A stretch of DNA of 64,000 bases, from positions 1,056,001 to 1,120,000 of the forward strand of contig NZ_CAKAKL010000002.1 in the NCBI RefSeq assembly GCF_916619195.1, read 5' to 3'. Positions 57,139 to 64,000 of this stretch are shown here, piece by piece. Source of the stretch: Inquilinus sp. Marseille-Q2685 (lineage in GTDB: Bacteria > Pseudomonadota > Alphaproteobacteria > DSM-16000 > Inquilinaceae). The notes beneath the pieces are model-generated. The model worked only from the letters and a program-made list of their open reading frames with translations, had not been told where the DNA came from and did no database searches. The position numbers were made by a program, and so were the translations under genes. Each line of letters begins with the position of its first letter. The first letter of the stretch is position 1.

Positions 57139-57891
57139 ATGGCCGCCACCCCCTCGCCCGAAATCGCTAACGCGATTTCGACCTCTCCCCAAGGAGAGGT
57201 GAAGGAGGAGCGCTCGGATCCCCTCTCCTCGGGGAGAGGGAGGGGCCCGGCCCGCTTGGGCCGGGAGGGTGAGGGGGTGTCGCCGGCCGCCGACGATCCC
57301 GGCATCGACATCGGCGGCCGGCTGCGGCGGCTGCGCGAGGAGCACGGCCTGAGCCAGCGCGAGCTGGCGCGGCGCGCCGGCGTCTCCAACGCCACCGTCT
57401 CGCTGATCGAGCAGAACCGCGCCAGCCCCTCGATCGGCTCGCTGAAGCGCGTTCTGGACGGGCTGCCGCTGAGCCTGGCCGAGTTCTTCGCCCTGCCCGA
57501 GGGGCCGGAGGACCCGGTGTTCTTCGCGGCGGCGGACCTCGTCGAGATCGCCGGCCGGCTGGGCGGGCACGGGGGCGGCGGCGGCGAAGGACCCGAAGGG
57601 CCCGGCCTGATCTCCTACCGCCAGGTGGGCTGCCAGCCCGGCCGGGCGCTGCAGATCCTGCACGAGCGGCTGGCGCCGGGCGCCGACACCGGCCCGACGG
57701 CGCTGAGCCATGCCGGCGAGGAGGGCGGCGTGGTGATCCGCGGCCGGGTGGAGCTGACGGTGGGCCCGCGCCGCCGCATCCTGGGCCCCGGCGACGCCTA
57801 TTACTTCCAGAGCCGCCTGCCGCACCGCTTCCGCGTGGTCGGCGAGGAGCCGGCGGAGATCGTCTCGGCCTGCACCCCGCCGAGCTTCTGA
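57139..57891 (+). CDS. XRE-cupin (PuuR-like) regulator with a repeat element in its 5' end
   Basis: A helix-turn-helix regulator with IGGRLRRLREEHGLSQRELARRAGVSNATVSLIEQNRASPS and a C-terminal cupin domain (LSHAGEEGGVVIRGRVELTVG, GPGDAYYFQSRLPHRFRVVG), the layout of PuuR, repressor of putrescine catabolism. The palindromic element 57149-57277 (129 bp, 43 codons) lies between the start MAA and the domain and has no stop. Removing it would leave an ATG-GCC-GCC-ATG frame with the AGGAAAA site intact. With it, the protein is about 250 residues, longer than the roughly 185 of PuuR. A GTG at 57277 is an alternative start (204 residues). Confidence 0.75.
   Translation: MAATPSPEIANAISTSPQGEVKEERSDPLSSGRGRGPARLGREGEGVSPAADDPGIDIGGRLRRLREEHGLSQRELARRAGVSNATVSLIEQNRASPSIGSLKRVLDGLPLSLAEFFALPEGPEDPVFFAAADLVEIAGRLGGHGGGGGEGPEGPGLISYRQVGCQPGRALQILHERLAPGADTGPTALSHAGEEGGVVIRGRVELTVGPRRRILGPGDAYYFQSRLPHRFRVVGEEPAEIVSACTPPSF
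57149..57277. repeat. Palindromic repeat element, copy B, in frame within the XRE-cupin gene
   Basis: The 129-bp element runs from cccccTCGCCC to gggtgaggggg with internal hairpins cgaaatcgctaacgcgatttcg, cctctccccaaggagagg and ctctcctcggggagag. It is an inverted relative of copy A. Its length is a multiple of three and the frame stays open through it. Confidence 0.75.
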
Positions 57892-57979: not shown

Positions 57980-58249
57980 ATGGGCGACACCGCCATCGCC
58001 AAGCTGTTCCAGACCGGCCGCAGCCAGGCCGTGCGACTGCCGAAGGAGTTCCGCCTTCCGGGCAAGGCGGTGCGGGTGCGGCGCGTCGGGCGCGGCGTGC
58101 TGCTGGAGCCGATGGAGCGGAGCATTGAGGACATCCGGGCGCTCTTCGCCGAGATCGATCGGCTGCGCGGCAGCGGCGACTTCCTGCCCGAGGGCCGGCC
58201 CGAGCAGCCGCCGATGCCCCCGGCCGGCGAAATATCCCTCGACGAGTGA
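57980..58249 (+). CDS. vapB: VapB-type antitoxin (AbrB/SpoVT fold)
   Basis: An 89-residue protein. AIAKLFQTGRSQAVRLPKEFRLPGKAVRVRRVGRGVLLEP is the SpoVT-AbrB DNA-binding domain typical of VapB/MazE-like antitoxins; the C-terminal acidic part (IEDIRALFAEIDRLRG) should bind the toxin. It is followed by vapC with a GTGA overlap. Confidence 0.92.
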   Translation: MGDTAIAKLFQTGRSQAVRLPKEFRLPGKAVRVRRVGRGVLLEPMERSIEDIRALFAEIDRLRGSGDFLPEGRPEQPPMPPAGEISLDE

Positions 58250-58668
58250 CCGGGCGAATGTTCAGCCTCGACACCAACGCCGTCATCGCCGCGGTCAACC
58301 GGCGCAGGCCCGGGGCCCGGCGAAGGGTGGAAGCCGCCCTGGCCGAGGGCACAGGTGTCGGCATCCCCACCATTGTGCTGTACGAGCTGCATTACGGCAT
58401 CGCCAAGAGCGCCCGGCCGCAGGAGAACCGGGCCATCCTGGCCGCCTTCATGGCCCTGGATCTCTCCGTCTGGCCGTTCGAGCCGGAGGATGCCGAGGAG
58501 GCGGGCGAGATCCGCGCGGCGCTGGAGCGCGCGGGAACGCCGATCGGTCCGTACGACCTCCTGATCGCGGCCCAGGCGCGGCGGCGGGGAGCGGTGCTGG
58601 TCACGGCGAACACCGGAGAGTTCGCGCGGGTGCCGGGGCTGAGGACGGAGGATTGGACGGCGGGGTGA
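58246..58668 (+). CDS. vapC: VapC-type PIN-domain toxin
   Basis: A PIN-domain ribonuclease toxin. Acidic residues are D in MFSLDTNAVIAAV, E in IVLYELHYGIAKSA, D in GPYDLLIAAQARRR and the terminal TANTGEFARVPGL. The GTG at 58246 overlaps the vapB stop and would give 140 residues; an ATG at 58258 (MFSLDTN) gives 136. It should cleave specific tRNAs or rRNA unless bound by VapB. Confidence 0.92.
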   Translation: MTGRMFSLDTNAVIAAVNRRRPGARRRVEAALAEGTGVGIPTIVLYELHYGIAKSARPQENRAILAAFMALDLSVWPFEPEDAEEAGEIRAALERAGTPIGPYDLLIAAQARRRGAVLVTANTGEFARVPGLRTEDWTAG

Positions 58669-58809: not shown

Positions 58810-59520
58810 TCAGCTGCTGTCCGGCTTCGGCAGCCGGGGCAGCGGACAGCCGTCTCCAGACTCGTCCGGCAGTTCGGACCAGCCGTCCCCGGCCGCAGGG
58901 CTTGCGAAGCCCGCGGGGCCTGCGAGGCCCGCTGGGCCCGCGGCGGCGAGATCCATGCGCCTGTCGGGCAGGCTGATCGTGTCGACGGTACCGGCGGCAT
59001 CGGCCCAGCCGCGCGGCAGCCAGGCCGGGTTCGGCGGGCGGCCGATCTTGCGGCAGACCTCGCGCACGAACTCCTCCGCGGTCAGCGAATCGAGCTGGGC
59101 GTCCAGGATCTCGTCCTCGACCAGCCTCTCCCGCACCGCCGACCGCACATATTCGATGTCGTCCTCATCGGGTTTCGCGGCCGCCCGGACGGCGTCCTCG
59201 ACGGCCTGGTCCCGCCGCTGCCGGCGCCGCTGCTCCTCGCCCGACTCCTTGCGTTCTTCCCGGCGCATCAGATGGTCGGCGCGGATCCGCTCGGTCATGG
59301 CGATCGACAGCCGCACGGAGCGGGAGAGCCGCGACTGCTTCAGGTCGAAATCGGGCGCGTCCGGCCCCGCCGGCGTCTGCAGTTGCTGAGTCTCGGTCAT
59401 GCGCTTGGTGCGCACGTCGATCGCGACCAGCTCGCGCAGCGTATCCAGCGCCCACCCCGTCCAATGCATGTCGGGATCGGTCGGCCGGATCTCGTCAGAA
59501 TCGGATTGCGCCTCGTCCAT
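58810..59520 (-). CDS. Hypothetical protein, unrecognised
   Basis: A 236-residue protein starting at MDEAQSDSDEIRPTDPDMHWTGWALDTLRELVAIDVRTKRMTE. It is highly charged and probably mostly helical in the middle (RLSIAMTERIRADHLMRREERKESGEEQRRRQRRDQAVEDAV), with a conserved-looking globular part (LDSLTAEEFVREVCRKIGRPPNPAWLPRGWA) and a low-complexity Ala/Gly/Pro C-terminus. No enzymatic motif is visible. The ATG at 59520 is chosen because it starts the ordered text; 41 further codons are open upstream. It is divergent from the defence-like gene block. Confidence 0.65.
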   Translation of the reverse strand: MDEAQSDSDEIRPTDPDMHWTGWALDTLRELVAIDVRTKRMTETQQLQTPAGPDAPDFDLKQSRLSRSVRLSIAMTERIRADHLMRREERKESGEEQRRRQRRDQAVEDAVRAAAKPDEDDIEYVRSAVRERLVEDEILDAQLDSLTAEEFVREVCRKIGRPPNPAWLPRGWADAAGTVDTISLPDRRMDLAAAGPAGLAGPAGFASPAAGDGWSELPDESGDGCPLPRLPKPDSS

Positions 59521-59649
59521 GGAACATATCATGAACAAGAGTCGCGAGTTAAGGCAATGAACATTGTGTTTCCCACCGATCGGGCGGTCAGACCGTGACC
59601 AGGCATCGGTCTGCGCATCGTGAGCTTTTCGTCCGCAGTGCATGCACAG

Positions 59650-59678
59650 TTGCCTAATTGCCCCAAACGAAGTTTACT
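59650..59678 (+). promoter_or_regulatory. Possible promoter of the DGQHR-dam unit
   Basis: TTGCCT and TTTACT are 17 bp apart, 29 bp upstream of the DGQHR start codon, and AGGAC lies next to that ATG. Pattern match only. Confidence 0.35.
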
Positions 59679-59707
59679 CCTCTCATTGATTCTGAGGTTC
59701 TTAGGAC

Positions 59708-62002
59708 ATGATTGGGGAACTGACTGATACGTCCGCGAAGCGCATTGCTGAATATAAAAGACGCCGCAAACCCTATATAGAACAGACGTTCCAATTGGAC
59801 GAGCAGGAAGACGCGCTCTCCCAAGGATGGGAGCTTGTTCGGGAAAATAAGGCATCGCTTCGCTATCGAAAAATAAGAGATGCCGATGAACAGCTAGAAA
59901 ATGAGTTTTGGAGACTCCTTTACGACTTTGGTTATCCGAAACTAAGTGTCGGAAGAAATTTTAACGTTTTGGTTTCTAAGAAACCCGACATTGAATTAAC
60001 CAAAAATATAGATGTTTTTGCATATGACAACGAAACCATCATAGTGGCGGAATGCATCGCCTATGAAAAGAGAACAAAACAATCTCTTCAAAATGAAATC
60101 AACGACCTTATCACAAATCAAAGAAATATTGCCCAATCTCTCCGATCGCATTTTGAAGGAAATTTTCCTCAAAAGATAATTTGGCTTATAGTTACTCGGA
60201 ATCTAGAGTGGTCAGAAAGTGATATAAAGCGAGCACATGATGGAAATATCAATATTTTGACAGAACGAGAAATCTTTTATTATAAGGAAATTGCAAAGCG
60301 CATTGGTCATTCGGCCCGATTTCAGTTCCATGCAGAGTTTTTAGCAAAGACAAAAGTAGCTGCTTTAGACAATGTAAAAGTATATGCTATTAGAACTAGA
60401 TTAGGAGCTCACAAAGTTTTTACTTTTTTTGCGCCTGCGTCAAAGATTTTGCCAATTTCATTCGTAAATCATCGAGATCTGCGAGATCCTAGTGCAGCAC
60501 CTTCATATCAGAGATTGCTTCAGCGCCCTCGTCTTAGACAAATAACCGATTTTGTCAAGTCAGGTGGCTTTTTTCCCAATACCATTATTTTAAATTTCAA
60601 GCAAAAGGTTCAATTTGATGTTGTTAAGTCGGAAGATGATGACGGAGTTACCAGCGGAATTTTAACTCTTCCAAATACTTATAAGTCGGCTTGGATTATA
60701 GACGGTCAACATCGTATCTATGGATACAGTGAGCTAGAAGATGATACTCCTCAATCTCTTTTACCTTTTCTAGCATTTGAGAACATAAGTATATCAGAAG
60801 AGACTAAACTTTTTAGCGATATCAATAGCAAACAAAAGAGAGTTGAAAAAAAGCTTCTAGATGAGATCACAGGCGAAATTAAATTGGAATCATCTGACAA
60901 ACGGGAGCAAATCAGAGCTATTTCATCTCGAGCATTTGATATGATGCGTGAAGATGACGACGGACCTCTCGGCGGAAAAATCGCAGGAGTTGAAGTAAAG
61001 CAGAATGAATACAGCATACTAACTATACCATACCTTGTTGACGCCGTCATACAATCGGGAATTATGGGCAGAATAACACAAAAGGATGGTCGAAATACTT
61101 ACGTCCATGGTTCTATATATTGGACAGAGCCACGAGAAGCCATCGATCATCTTATGATTTTCCTATCTGAATATCTGAACCTTTTTAGATTGGCCAATCT
61201 CGATCGTTGGGAAGCGGGGAAGAACGGCAAGTTCGCATCCAATCCTGGAGTTGCCGGATTAATCCGCTTTGCCGGTGATCTCATTTCGCACCTTTGCCTG
61301 AAGCGCCACGTCGATACACGTTCGCTGCACCCCAAGGTCCTGGTGGAGGAGATAGAGGAGTTCGCAAAGCCCGCTATATCATACTTCCAGACCGCCACTG
61401 ATCTGGAGGTAGAGCAGAGATTCCAAATCCCATTCGGTAGCGGCGGCCCTCGCATCTTTCAGCACCGCCTTCGCGAGTTGGTGGGTAAGCAATTTTCCGA
61501 TTTCGAACCGCCGGGTTTCCGTGACGACTTAAGAAAGTACGATGCAGAGAGAACGGATACAGCTGATCGCTGGGTGAGAGCCGTTCAAGAGGAGGTTCAT
61601 AGACACGTAGTTGAAGTGCTTCGAAGAGAATATGGGCCAGGCGATGACTATTTAGAAAAGGGAATCGATAATAAGGAAATACTTAAAAAGGCGTTTGACA
61701 AGAGGCTTGATGCAGATGGTGATGACAAGAAAGATATGGCGACTTATCTTGATTTTCTAGATTTAAGAAAAATTGTTGAATCACAAAGAAATTGGTCATT
61801 CTTTTCTGACTCTCTAAATATACAGCTTCCATCTGAACGCAAAGGAAAGGCCAAATACGTAGCATGGTTCGACGAGATAAACAAAGCGCGACGAGTTTCG
61901 GCTCACCCATATAATCGAGGTTATTCTGACGAAGAAGTAAGTACTATTGAATTTGTCTTCAACGAGCTACATAGGCGCGGTGTTATTGCAGGTAGAAACT
62001 GA
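59708..62002 (+). CDS. DGQHR-domain protein with nuclease-like N-terminus and HEPN-like C-terminus
   Basis: A 764-residue protein. About residues 50-190 look like a restriction-endonuclease-like fold (IDVFAYDNETIIVAECIAYEKRTK: D102, E115), but the Lys expected after E-x is Ile117. The middle part contains AWIIDGQHRIYGYSEL (DGQHR at 332-336) and FSDINSKQKRVEKKLLDEI, the hallmarks of DndB-like, ParB-fold proteins. The C-terminus (about 650-764) reads like a Swt1-type HEPN domain, with WFDEINKARRVSAHPYNRGYSDEE giving R728-x4-H733. Composition is much more AT-rich than the chromosome, except for a GC-richer patch near 61190-61560. Its stop overlaps the methylase start (TGATG). A role in phage defence is inference. 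Confidence 0.85.
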   Translation: MIGELTDTSAKRIAEYKRRRKPYIEQTFQLDEQEDALSQGWELVRENKASLRYRKIRDADEQLENEFWRLLYDFGYPKLSVGRNFNVLVSKKPDIELTKNIDVFAYDNETIIVAECIAYEKRTKQSLQNEINDLITNQRNIAQSLRSHFEGNFPQKIIWLIVTRNLEWSESDIKRAHDGNINILTEREIFYYKEIAKRIGHSARFQFHAEFLAKTKVAALDNVKVYAIRTRLGAHKVFTFFAPASKILPISFVNHRDLRDPSAAPSYQRLLQRPRLRQITDFVKSGGFFPNTIILNFKQKVQFDVVKSEDDDGVTSGILTLPNTYKSAWIIDGQHRIYGYSELEDDTPQSLLPFLAFENISISEETKLFSDINSKQKRVEKKLLDEITGEIKLESSDKREQIRAISSRAFDMMREDDDGPLGGKIAGVEVKQNEYSILTIPYLVDAVIQSGIMGRITQKDGRNTYVHGSIYWTEPREAIDHLMIFLSEYLNLFRLANLDRWEAGKNGKFASNPGVAGLIRFAGDLISHLCLKRHVDTRSLHPKVLVEEIEEFAKPAISYFQTATDLEVEQRFQIPFGSGGPRIFQHRLRELVGKQFSDFEPPGFRDDLRKYDAERTDTADRWVRAVQEEVHRHVVEVLRREYGPGDDYLEKGIDNKEILKKAFDKRLDADGDDKKDMATYLDFLDLRKIVESQRNWSFFSDSLNIQLPSERKGKAKYVAWFDEINKARRVSAHPYNRGYSDEEVSTIEFVFNELHRRGVIAGRN

Positions 62003-62892
62003 TGAAACCGTTTCTTAAATGGGCCGGCGGCAAACGCTGGCTTGCCTATCGTCTTGGCATTTCGAAATTGGATGGTGTAAAGAAGTATATCGAACCATTT
62101 GTGGGCAGTGGTGCTATTTTTTTTCATTTCCAACCTGAAAATTCTATATTGAATGATTTCAATAAAAACTTAGTCAATACGTACAAAGCAATTAGAGATA
62201 ACGTTAATGAGGTTGTTTCGATCCTTGAGTCACATCAGAAATGCCACAGTGCTGAATATTATTACAACATAAGAAATAAACGTATGGAAAAAATGGAAGA
62301 GAAGGCGGCACAGTTCATCTACTTAAATAGAACATGCTGGAATGGTCTTTATAGAGAAAACAAATTTGGCGAATTCAATGTTCCGAAAGGGACAAAAGAT
62401 AAGGTAATATTTCCAGATGATGATTTTATATCGGCGAGTATGGCACTTAAAAATGCTGAACTTTATTCTGATGATTTTGAAGCTGTTATCGAAAAGTCTA
62501 ATGAAGGAGATTTGATTTTTGCGGATCCTCCATATACAGTAAAGCACAATCGAAATGGATTTTTAAAGTACAATGAGAAGATATTTTCTTGGGATGACCA
62601 GATAAGACTTCGAGATTGCATTCTTAGAGCTAGCCAAAGAGGAGTAAAAATTGTAATGACCAATGCTTATCATACTTCAATTTCCTGTATATATGAGCCA
62701 TTCGCGGAAATAACTCCACTTGAACGTCACAGTGTACTTTCGGCAAAAAAAAATTATAGATCCACTACACAAGAATCACTCATCACCATAAACATAAGAG
62801 CCGACGAAATTCTTTCGAAAAAAAGAGCTCGCATTTACTATCCTGATGCAGAGAAGAATATAGATATTCAGATGGCAGAGACAAATATCTAA
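62002..62892 (+). CDS. Dam-family DNA adenine-N6 methyltransferase
   Basis: A 296-residue D12-class methyltransferase. FLKWAGGKRWLAYRLG is the SAM-binding motif I region, KKYIEPFVGSGAIFFHF its continuation, and ADPPYTVKHNRNGFLKYN the catalytic DPPY (175-178). It is expected to methylate adenine in a short sequence, either as the self-marking arm of restriction or as an orphan Dam. It is AT-rich and translationally coupled to the DGQHR gene by a one-base overlap. The target sequence cannot be deduced from the sequence. Confidence 0.93.
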   Translation: MKPFLKWAGGKRWLAYRLGISKLDGVKKYIEPFVGSGAIFFHFQPENSILNDFNKNLVNTYKAIRDNVNEVVSILESHQKCHSAEYYYNIRNKRMEKMEEKAAQFIYLNRTCWNGLYRENKFGEFNVPKGTKDKVIFPDDDFISASMALKNAELYSDDFEAVIEKSNEGDLIFADPPYTVKHNRNGFLKYNEKIFSWDDQIRLRDCILRASQRGVKIVMTNAYHTSISCIYEPFAEITPLERHSVLSAKKNYRSTTQESLITINIRADEILSKKRARIYYPDAEKNIDIQMAETNI

Positions 62893-62899
62893 GATAGCT

Positions 62900-63799
62900 A
62901 TGGGATTCGGGATCTTCATCCACCGCTCAGATTCGATCTACGACGACAGCCCCGCTGAGCGATACCAGTTTCCCAGCCAGTATCTCGGTCGGGTTCAGGC
63001 CTGCGTCGGCGACTGGATCATCTACTACGAACCCCGAAAGGTCGCCGCGACGCGCGGCTACTTCGCCGTGGCGAAGGTCCAGCAGGTCATTCGCGATCCC
63101 GGCGCCCCTGGCATGTACCTCGCCCTGATCGAGCCCGGAAGCTATCTCGACTTCGCCAATCCCGTTCCGTTCAGCGATGCCGGCGGCGTGGTCGAGCGAG
63201 GCGTGTTGAACGAGCAAGGGCAGATCTCGGGCCGCGCCCAATCGGCCGTCCGCCCGATCTCTCCGGCCGATTTCAATCGTATCGTCACGCTGGGCCTGGA
63301 TCTTGCCGAGCCCATGTTGCCGCGCGTCGGCGAGCCTATGCCCCCGATCGGCCTTCAGGAAGAGCAAGCGCCGATGGAATTCGAGCAGAGCCGTGAGAGG
63401 ATAAGCGTCATTACCTCGCGGGCCGTTCGCGATCGTGTGTTCCGCCAGATCGTGTTGCGGGCCTATGACCAGCGCTGCGCAATCACAGGACTCAGGCTGA
63501 TCAATGGCGGCGGCCGGGCGGAGGTCGCTGCCGCCCATATCCGGCCGGTCCAGGCGAATGGCCCCGACATTATCAGCAACGGGATTGCCCTTTCCGGCAC
63601 GGCGCACTGGATGTTCGATCGCGGGCTGATCAGTCTGGGCGACGACCTGGAGATCCTGATCTCGCGGCAGGCCAACGACCAGGACAGCATCCGAGCCTTC
63701 ATCAACAGGACCGGTCGGGCGTATCCGCCTCAGCGGGCGTTGGATCGGCCGCATCCACATTTCCTGCAATGGCATCGGGAGCACTGCTTCAAGCAGTAG
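62900..63799 (+). CDS. HNH endonuclease with N-terminal PUA/EVE-like domain
   Basis: A 299-residue protein. The C-terminal half (about 165-290) is an HNH nuclease: FRQIVLRAYDQRCAITGLRL, VAAAHIRPV (H213), NGIALSGTAHWMFDRGLISL (H236). The N-terminal half (GIFIHRSDSIYDDSPAERYQFPSQYLGRVQACVGDWIIYYEPRKV ... YFAVAKVQQVIRDP) looks like a PUA/EVE-type module, a fold that reads modified bases in several restriction enzymes. It begins 7 bp after the methylase but is GC-rich like the chromosome. It is the likely cutting subunit of the unit or a stand-alone modification-dependent nuclease. Confidence 0.85.
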   Translation: MGFGIFIHRSDSIYDDSPAERYQFPSQYLGRVQACVGDWIIYYEPRKVAATRGYFAVAKVQQVIRDPGAPGMYLALIEPGSYLDFANPVPFSDAGGVVERGVLNEQGQISGRAQSAVRPISPADFNRIVTLGLDLAEPMLPRVGEPMPPIGLQEEQAPMEFEQSRERISVITSRAVRDRVFRQIVLRAYDQRCAITGLRLINGGGRAEVAAAHIRPVQANGPDIISNGIALSGTAHWMFDRGLISLGDDLEILISRQANDQDSIRAFINRTGRAYPPQRALDRPHPHFLQWHREHCFKQ

Positions 63800-63923
63800 C
63801 GCGAGCCGGCAACCACCTCATGGCCAAGCTGGCGTGATGCGCTGGGTTCCCTCCCCCGCCGTCCTGCGCTAAACCGGCACCGCCTTCCGGCCGCTCCGGA
63901 CTTCCTCTGCATCGGACCCCGCC

Positions 63924-64000
63924 ATGCCCGACTGGTTCTCGCTCGCCGAGCTCACCGCCCTCGTCCAGGTCGTGATCATCGACGTGGCGCTGGCGGGCGA
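63924..64000 (+). CDS. TerC/YjbE-family membrane protein, 5' end only
   Basis: The first 25 codons (MPDWFSLAELTALVQVVIIDVALAG) match the beginning of TerC-family proteins, whose first helix ends in the metal-binding D-x-x-LAGDN motif; the window ends just at that point. Members export Mn or handle metal/tellurite stress. No yybP-ykoY-type riboswitch is recognisable in the 124 bp upstream. Confidence 0.65.
   Translation, partial: MPDWFSLAELTALVQVVIIDVALAG

Follow-up and report, generated by a model that had tools for sequence, protein, structure and literature searches.

A DGQHR-HEPN protein and a Dam-family adenine methylase form a recurrent gene pair and a candidate modification-guarded immune module in Inquilinus

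Architecture of the gene pair

Near the right-hand end of a 64,000-nucleotide stretch of the Inquilinus sp. Marseille-Q2685 genome (contig NZ_CAKAKL010000002.1, positions 1,056,001 to 1,120,000; hereafter the window), three adjacent genes had been predicted from the sequence alone to constitute a defence system. The open reading frame (ORF) coordinates agree with the layout proposed then: on the + strand, gene 1 (59708-62002, 764 amino acids) and gene 2 (62002-62892, 296 amino acids, a D12/Dam-family adenine-N6 DNA methyltransferase) have one base in common within a TGATG junction, and gene 3 (62900-63799, 299 amino acids, an HNH_2 nuclease) follows after seven bases. Comparison with other genomes identifies genes 1 and 2 as a conserved unit. 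As had also been noted, these two genes are far more AT-rich than their surroundings, with guanine-cytosine (GC) fractions of 0.415 and 0.356, against 0.636 for gene 3 and 0.692 for the window. Third-position GC is 0.31 in gene 2 and 0.79 in gene 3; across gene 1, in blocks of 60 codons, it runs from 0.23 to 0.67 with its peak at codons 481-600. Within the AT-rich gene 1, GC is raised to 0.52-0.57 over positions 61200-61600, possibly a recombination tract.

The central part of the gene 1 product is a DGQHR/DndB-type ParB-like domain (residues ~224-480, with the motif at D332-GQHR), and here the original prediction is borne out by a match to NCBIfam TIGR03187 (E 3.6e-35, residues 227-480). The match to the DpdB model is partial (E 5.4e-21; 74.9 bits with an equivalog cut-off of 300), that to DGQHR_dnd_1 reaches 65.3 bits (cut-off 450), and a partial DpdB match was all that a PADLOC scan returned. 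A Pfam scan of the window protein gave no family, HEPN included. When 60 family members, the window protein among them, were scanned at a threshold of E up to 0.05, DndB was matched in 55, Card1_endonuc in 16 (best 3.2e-6), Hjc in 12 (best 0.0028) and HEPN_Swt1 in nine (best 8.4e-6), the window protein not being one of these nine.

Motifs were counted over 68 aligned rows, obtained from 89 gene-1 rows (80 genome loci, eight loci from a viral collection and the window) by omitting 21 fragments, near-duplicates and extra close relatives. The DGQHR motif (332-336) is invariant in all 68. Equally invariant is the R-x4-H (R728, H733) of a C-terminal Swt1-like HEPN region (N725..R728-x4-H733), whose full motif is N-x2-R-x4-H, with N725 present in 65 rows. 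The HEPN domain proposed earlier is thus supported by this motif and by the Pfam matches of relatives, though not by a match on the window protein itself. A further N-terminal region, absent from the earlier account, carries E64 in 62 of the rows, D102 in 67, E115 in 62 and K117 in 48, a pattern that reads as a PD-(D/E)XK nuclease signature; the Card1_endonuc and Hjc matches of relatives bear on this region. Scored as intact when D102, D/E115 and K117 are all present, the signature is intact in 47 rows and altered in 21, with at least eight changes on the 68-row tree. The window copy retains E64, D102 and E115 and has ECI in place of ECK (E115-C-I117, the usual lysine replaced by isoleucine), and its closest gene-1 relative, from Ochrobactrum (L038, 55%), has MCI; a migrated lysine may still complete the signature of the window copy.

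Gene 2 is readily recognized as the Dam methylase it had been called, matching TIGR00571 (Dam) at E 4e-65 and Pfam D12 at E 7.3e-49, with the motifs FVGSG (33) and DPPY (175). It is the sole match of its kind in its own genome at E 0.001. Among solved structures, the closest in sequence is that of the DpnII methylase 2dpm (E 5.1e-49), followed by DNA adenine methylase entries such as 4gol and 2g1p; from these solved relatives, a GATC-like target site would be our guess. In PADLOC the protein matches PD-Lambda-5_B weakly (E 1e-9) and many MTase_II models far better.

Recurrence of the pair and its modification partners

Scanning genome contigs with a four-member gene-1 alignment yielded 132 relatives, of which the best 80 were kept, so that the counts below lean towards relatives near the query; with a single gene-1 sequence, a scan of the same contigs found no relative, and the four-sequence alignment was needed. 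The relatives span many bacterial phyla and the archaea (Methanoperedens, Methanococcoides and an ANME-2 archaeon). An adenine methyltransferase lies near gene 1 in 65 of the 80 genome loci (60 D12/Dam, five MT-A70), 14 loci have a radical-SAM and/or GHKL gene, and one (L107, on a 5.7-kb contig) has neither; the predicted association of a DGQHR-HEPN protein with an adenine methylase is therefore upheld as a recurrent, defence-like unit. In 55 loci the ORF search located a D12 methylase no more than 1 kb away and in the same orientation as gene 1; tblastn with Pfam added L056, L079, L051 (a fragment at a contig end), L071 (a divergent D12) and L089, where the methylase is on the opposite strand about 0.9 kb from a gene 1 of only 513 amino acids. 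The MT-A70 loci are L066, L069, L072, L073 and L088, with the methylase on the opposite strand in L072 and L073. Twelve loci (11 genome, one viral) had initially been placed among 'other' in the ORF table; for 10 of these 11 genome loci a methylase was then revealed by tblastn and Pfam. L074 and L027, whose contigs have equal lengths, look like one contig. Among the 55 ORF-found methylases, 52 are downstream of gene 1; in 49 the two genes lie at most 60 nt apart or overlap by no more than that, and in 42 they overlap, the overlap counts being upper estimates because the ORF caller picks the most upstream start. DPPY is present in all 62 Dam partners called as ORFs, a count that takes in the window and the viral loci, and DPPW in all five MT-A70 partners.

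For comparison, 45 of the 120 phylum genomes have a D12 gene, and of 30 D12 loci from the phylum search (3-3.8 kb each) gene 1 is present in the window's own only. The eight viral-collection loci comprise six with Dam, one with radical SAM and one, a short relative, with neither; gene 1 of three of them (L118, L119 and L121) is identical to that of L040, L048 and L078. A phage collection gave one partial match, covering 20% of gene 1. No third partner recurs: among 131 ORFs near gene 1 (L038-L082), a mechanically called set of which some are spurious, no family had more than three members in Pfam or four in PADLOC, judged from the top 25 of 150 Pfam and of 41 PADLOC families and leaving out six ORFs (five partner methylases and a transporter in L066).

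Gene-1 and gene-2 distances correlate with r 0.66 (n 53; 0.47 among distant pairs), compared with a maximum of 0.24 in 2000 permutations. In a tree with long branches and rough bootstrap values, the partner methylases separate from 24 other D12 proteins with two label changes, where shuffled labels need 21.3 on average. Gene-1 trees were built from 81 and from 68 rows. Four of the five MT-A70 loci are in the gene-1 tree and represent, by the simplest count, three separate replacements (L066/L069, L072 and L088). MT-A70 thus stands in for Dam in separate lineages, and the requirement seems to be for methylation as such and not for a given enzyme. All nine rows that have an altered nuclease signature and do not belong to the radical-SAM class keep an adenine methyltransferase, which suggests that the danger guarded against is not only the PD-(D/E)XK site.

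The 14 loci with a radical-SAM and/or GHKL-ATPase gene in place of the methylase (among L094-L117; L100 has the ATPase only) form a distinct arrangement, and tblastn with L021 queries found no such gene in 73 fetched loci outside this class. On Agrobacterium/Rhizobium plasmids, which carry one nearly identical block, and on pNL1, the gene for a long DGQHR protein is accompanied by genes for a short DGQHR protein, a radical-SAM protein and a GHKL ATPase, together with a pair encoding a PIN-like protein and an ATPase; the branch is illustrated by L021 4188-14576 and L023 7887-17749, with DGQHR-HEPN, radical-SAM and GHKL-ATPase genes and sometimes short DGQHR and PIN-like ones. The nuclease signature in 13 rows of this class reads ECT in 10 and ECK in one. 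Since 13 of 15 radical-SAM rows form one clade in the larger, 81-row tree, the lysine-to-threonine pattern reflects one or few events. CxxxCxxC is found in all 17 radical-SAM partner ORFs checked (two being plasmid copies of one block). Of five such partners run through Pfam, four fall below the Radical_SAM cut-off and two (L108 and L124) have a weak B12-binding match; these two lie outside the main clade of 13.

A broader proposal can be drawn from these partners, one that we regard as tentative and on balance doubtful: the ParB-like sensor and the HEPN RNase would be a mark-agnostic immune core that has recruited SAM-dependent enzymes of different families as self-markers, namely Dam-type or MT-A70 methylases or a radical-SAM enzyme together with a GHKL ATPase, with the absence of the DNA mark triggering RNA cleavage. 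We rate it slightly lower because the two weak B12-binding matches are outside the main branch. If it holds, the radical-SAM branch implies a DNA mark not yet described, and it offers a definite place to look for a possible new DNA modification.

Proposed mechanism and competing explanations

Taken together, the gene contents and motifs suggest that genes 1 and 2 may be a two-gene modification-guarded immune (or addiction-like) module, a reading to which we attach about even confidence. Gene 2 would methylate adenines within a short host motif and so mark self DNA. The ParB-like DGQHR domain of gene 1 would survey DNA with turnover of nucleoside triphosphates (NTPs), and methylation would keep it away from self DNA. 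Entry of DNA that lacks the methylation would activate the C-terminal HEPN RNase and so stop the infected cell; copies with an intact PD-(D/E)XK signature would cut that DNA as well. The invariance of the DGQHR and HEPN motifs names the likely sensor and effector, and in the window copy the RNase arm is the likely effector. The trigger, the RNA target and protection from phage are what we infer for the module. We count in favor of an immune function that the site of the cassette is variable and that its other cargo is mostly of defence type.

Several observations weigh against this interpretation. Adenine methylation is not universal, since tblastn found neither a D12 nor an MT-A70 gene in any of the 14 radical-SAM/GHKL loci. 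The window's gene 2 is closest to that of L122, whereas its gene 1 is closest to that of L038, which indicates that partners have been exchanged or that rates differ. The module is rare, a near-full-length gene 1 being present in two of 289 sampled genomes of the class (the window's and G158) and any match in five. The outer domains of gene 1 are supported by Pfam matches in a minority of relatives and by motifs, and the gene-1 family profile found no relative among solved structures, all matches having E values of 0.2 or worse. PADLOC matches of neighboring genes are uncontrolled and are not counted as support. Finally, DndB is described as a negative regulator, and by analogy the DGQHR domain might act as a regulator of gene 2 instead of being a DNA sensor.

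Several known systems come close to the pair. A precedent is set by DndI, in which a ParB-like (DUF262) NTPase is fused to an HNH domain, reads the DNA mark and harms cells that lack it (PMC11662687); a DndB-like protein, in addition, is reported to bind ATP and GTP (PMC12704722). DndI/SspE resemble the proposed module in joining a nuclease to a ParB-like domain that reads a mark made by neighboring genes, but the cassette's mark would be adenine methylation by a single predicted enzyme and its predicted effector HEPN (plus PD-(D/E)XK) rather than HNH. No dnd or ssp match was found among the window genes scanned; the neighbors of the DGQHR gene, where a Dnd system would have dndC, dndD or dndE, are the 277-amino-acid ORF described below, Dam and HNH_2, with genes further away not scanned for dnd. 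DndB and DpdB, from the Dnd and Dpd systems, belong with gene 1 to the DGQHR domain family (TIGR03187), but gene 1 scores far under the equivalog cut-offs and has additional nuclease-like and HEPN regions. PD-lambda-5 is described as compacted restriction-modification plus abortive infection and shares a methyltransferase match (PMC9519451), but gene 1 matches no PD-Lambda-5 model. A survey of HEPN proteins (Anantharaman et al. 2013, PMC3710099) tabulates the HEPN-ParB fusion Saro_3948 in its Swt1-like, mostly active part and the MAE_28990 HEPN, whose operon includes genes for a ParB nuclease and for DNA methylases, and it considers HEPN as a back-up of restriction-modification systems; the general idea is therefore not new. 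For Saro_3948, the available text of the survey names no Dam pair, PD-(D/E)XK region or interchangeable modification partner. The long gene-1 relative on the Novosphingobium plasmid pNL1 is possibly the same protein as Saro_3948. The original remark that no named system was known with exactly the composition proposed then holds for genes 1 and 2, in that PADLOC gives only the partial DpdB match for gene 1 and the DGQHR-HEPN/adenine-methylase pair was not found described in the journal literature searched (preprints not covered), including the available text of PMC10853773, PMC12839542, PMC9519451, PMC13092281, PMC12704722, PMC4619093 and PMC3710099.

Should the proposed mechanism be correct, the pair is a compact immune module, thinly spread over bacteria and archaea, that bases its self/non-self decision on DNA adenine methylation, has RNA cleavage as its conserved response, and combines abortive infection with restriction-modification within a single polypeptide. 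That modification partners from different families can replace one another beside the same core protein also raises the question of which mark the DGQHR domain reads.

An ordinary Type II-like restriction-modification system, in which the PD-(D/E)XK region of gene 1 cuts unmethylated DNA, gene 2 protects and HEPN is a minor back-up, seems to us unlikely. As in Type II systems, a D12 methylase (DPPY) recurrently adjoins a nuclease-like protein, and the D..E-x-K signature is complete in 46 of 55 aligned rows outside the radical-SAM class. However, gene 1 has fused DGQHR and HEPN regions, and the nuclease signature changes at least eight times on the tree, with the methylase kept, while the HEPN and DGQHR motifs do not vary in the 68 rows. 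The signature is incomplete at I117 in the window copy, the usual catalytic lysine being replaced both there and in the closest relative.

We consider it more improbable still that the DGQHR domain both reads the modification and cuts the DNA, the role predicted for GmrS-type proteins, leaving HEPN as a structural or dimerizing part. DUF262/GmrS does resemble DGQHR, DGQQR is predicted to provide NTP binding and endonuclease activity (PMC4619093), and DGQHR is invariant in 68 of 68 rows; but the HEPN R-x4-H is just as invariant, and a purely structural domain need not be. There is even less to be said for a regulatory pair, in which gene 1 represses the methylase in the manner of DndB and the module serves as an epigenetic switch rather than a defence. 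An ATP-dependent negative regulatory role has been described for DndB (PMC10853773). However, the presence of two nuclease-type regions in gene 1 argues against a purely regulatory role, and so does the other defence-type cargo at the site in congeners.

The three-gene system of the original prediction, with the HNH protein as its DNA-cutting arm, retains almost no credence and was rejected: the seven-base gap and common strand make co-transcription possible in the window genome, but a gene-3 homolog lies near gene 1 in one of 88 genome and viral loci (L104, 3.8 kb off on the opposite strand), genes 1 and 2 are found in none of nine gene-3 loci from other genomes (one of them the same site in a congener), and nucleotide homology with the congener G001 resumes exactly at the HNH start codon. 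Gene 3 looks like a neighbor, not a conserved part of the cassette; it is common to G001 (85% amino acid identity) and has no counterpart at the site in G003 and G005. Its earlier description as a PUA-HNH protein stands for the HNH half (HNH_2, E 1.8e-8); the PUA/EVE part had no support in any search of gene 3, and against solved structures the gene-3 profile matched TagI and 6yex, in both cases over the HNH half only. Separately, at L089 5401-7742 the shortened gene-1 relative (513 amino acids) overlaps an HNH_2 gene with a weak DpnI_C-type match. This gene adjoins gene 1 but escapes a search with gene 3 as query, and the arrangement is perhaps an effector swap.

Genomic site and surroundings

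Comparison with G001 defines a segment without nucleotide counterpart at 59572-62899, which we take as the extent of the cassette; the same slot in G001 holds a kinase and a TPR gene. The right-hand anchor of the site is a + strand gene that starts at 63924 and runs past the window (63924-64000 within it), which encodes a conserved membrane protein that we call TerC-like from its sequence. The slot before it (59572-63923 in the window) carries different cargo in the four genomes read (the window, G001, G003 and G005). No direct repeats were found in 59400-64000 at the settings used, and a promoter and terminator scan of the locus was uninformative.

To the left lies an ORF of 277 amino acids (58810-59643, - strand) without a Pfam match, a member of a dispersed family with 8 to 28 matches, some bearing in-frame stops, in each of six genomes of the genus searched. 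A copy of this family flanks the cassette site in both the window genome and G001. Further upstream are a MazE-like/PIN toxin-antitoxin pair at 57980-58668 and, at 57150-57202 on the - strand, a match to the Rfam family whalefall-1 (42.1 bits, gathering threshold 37).

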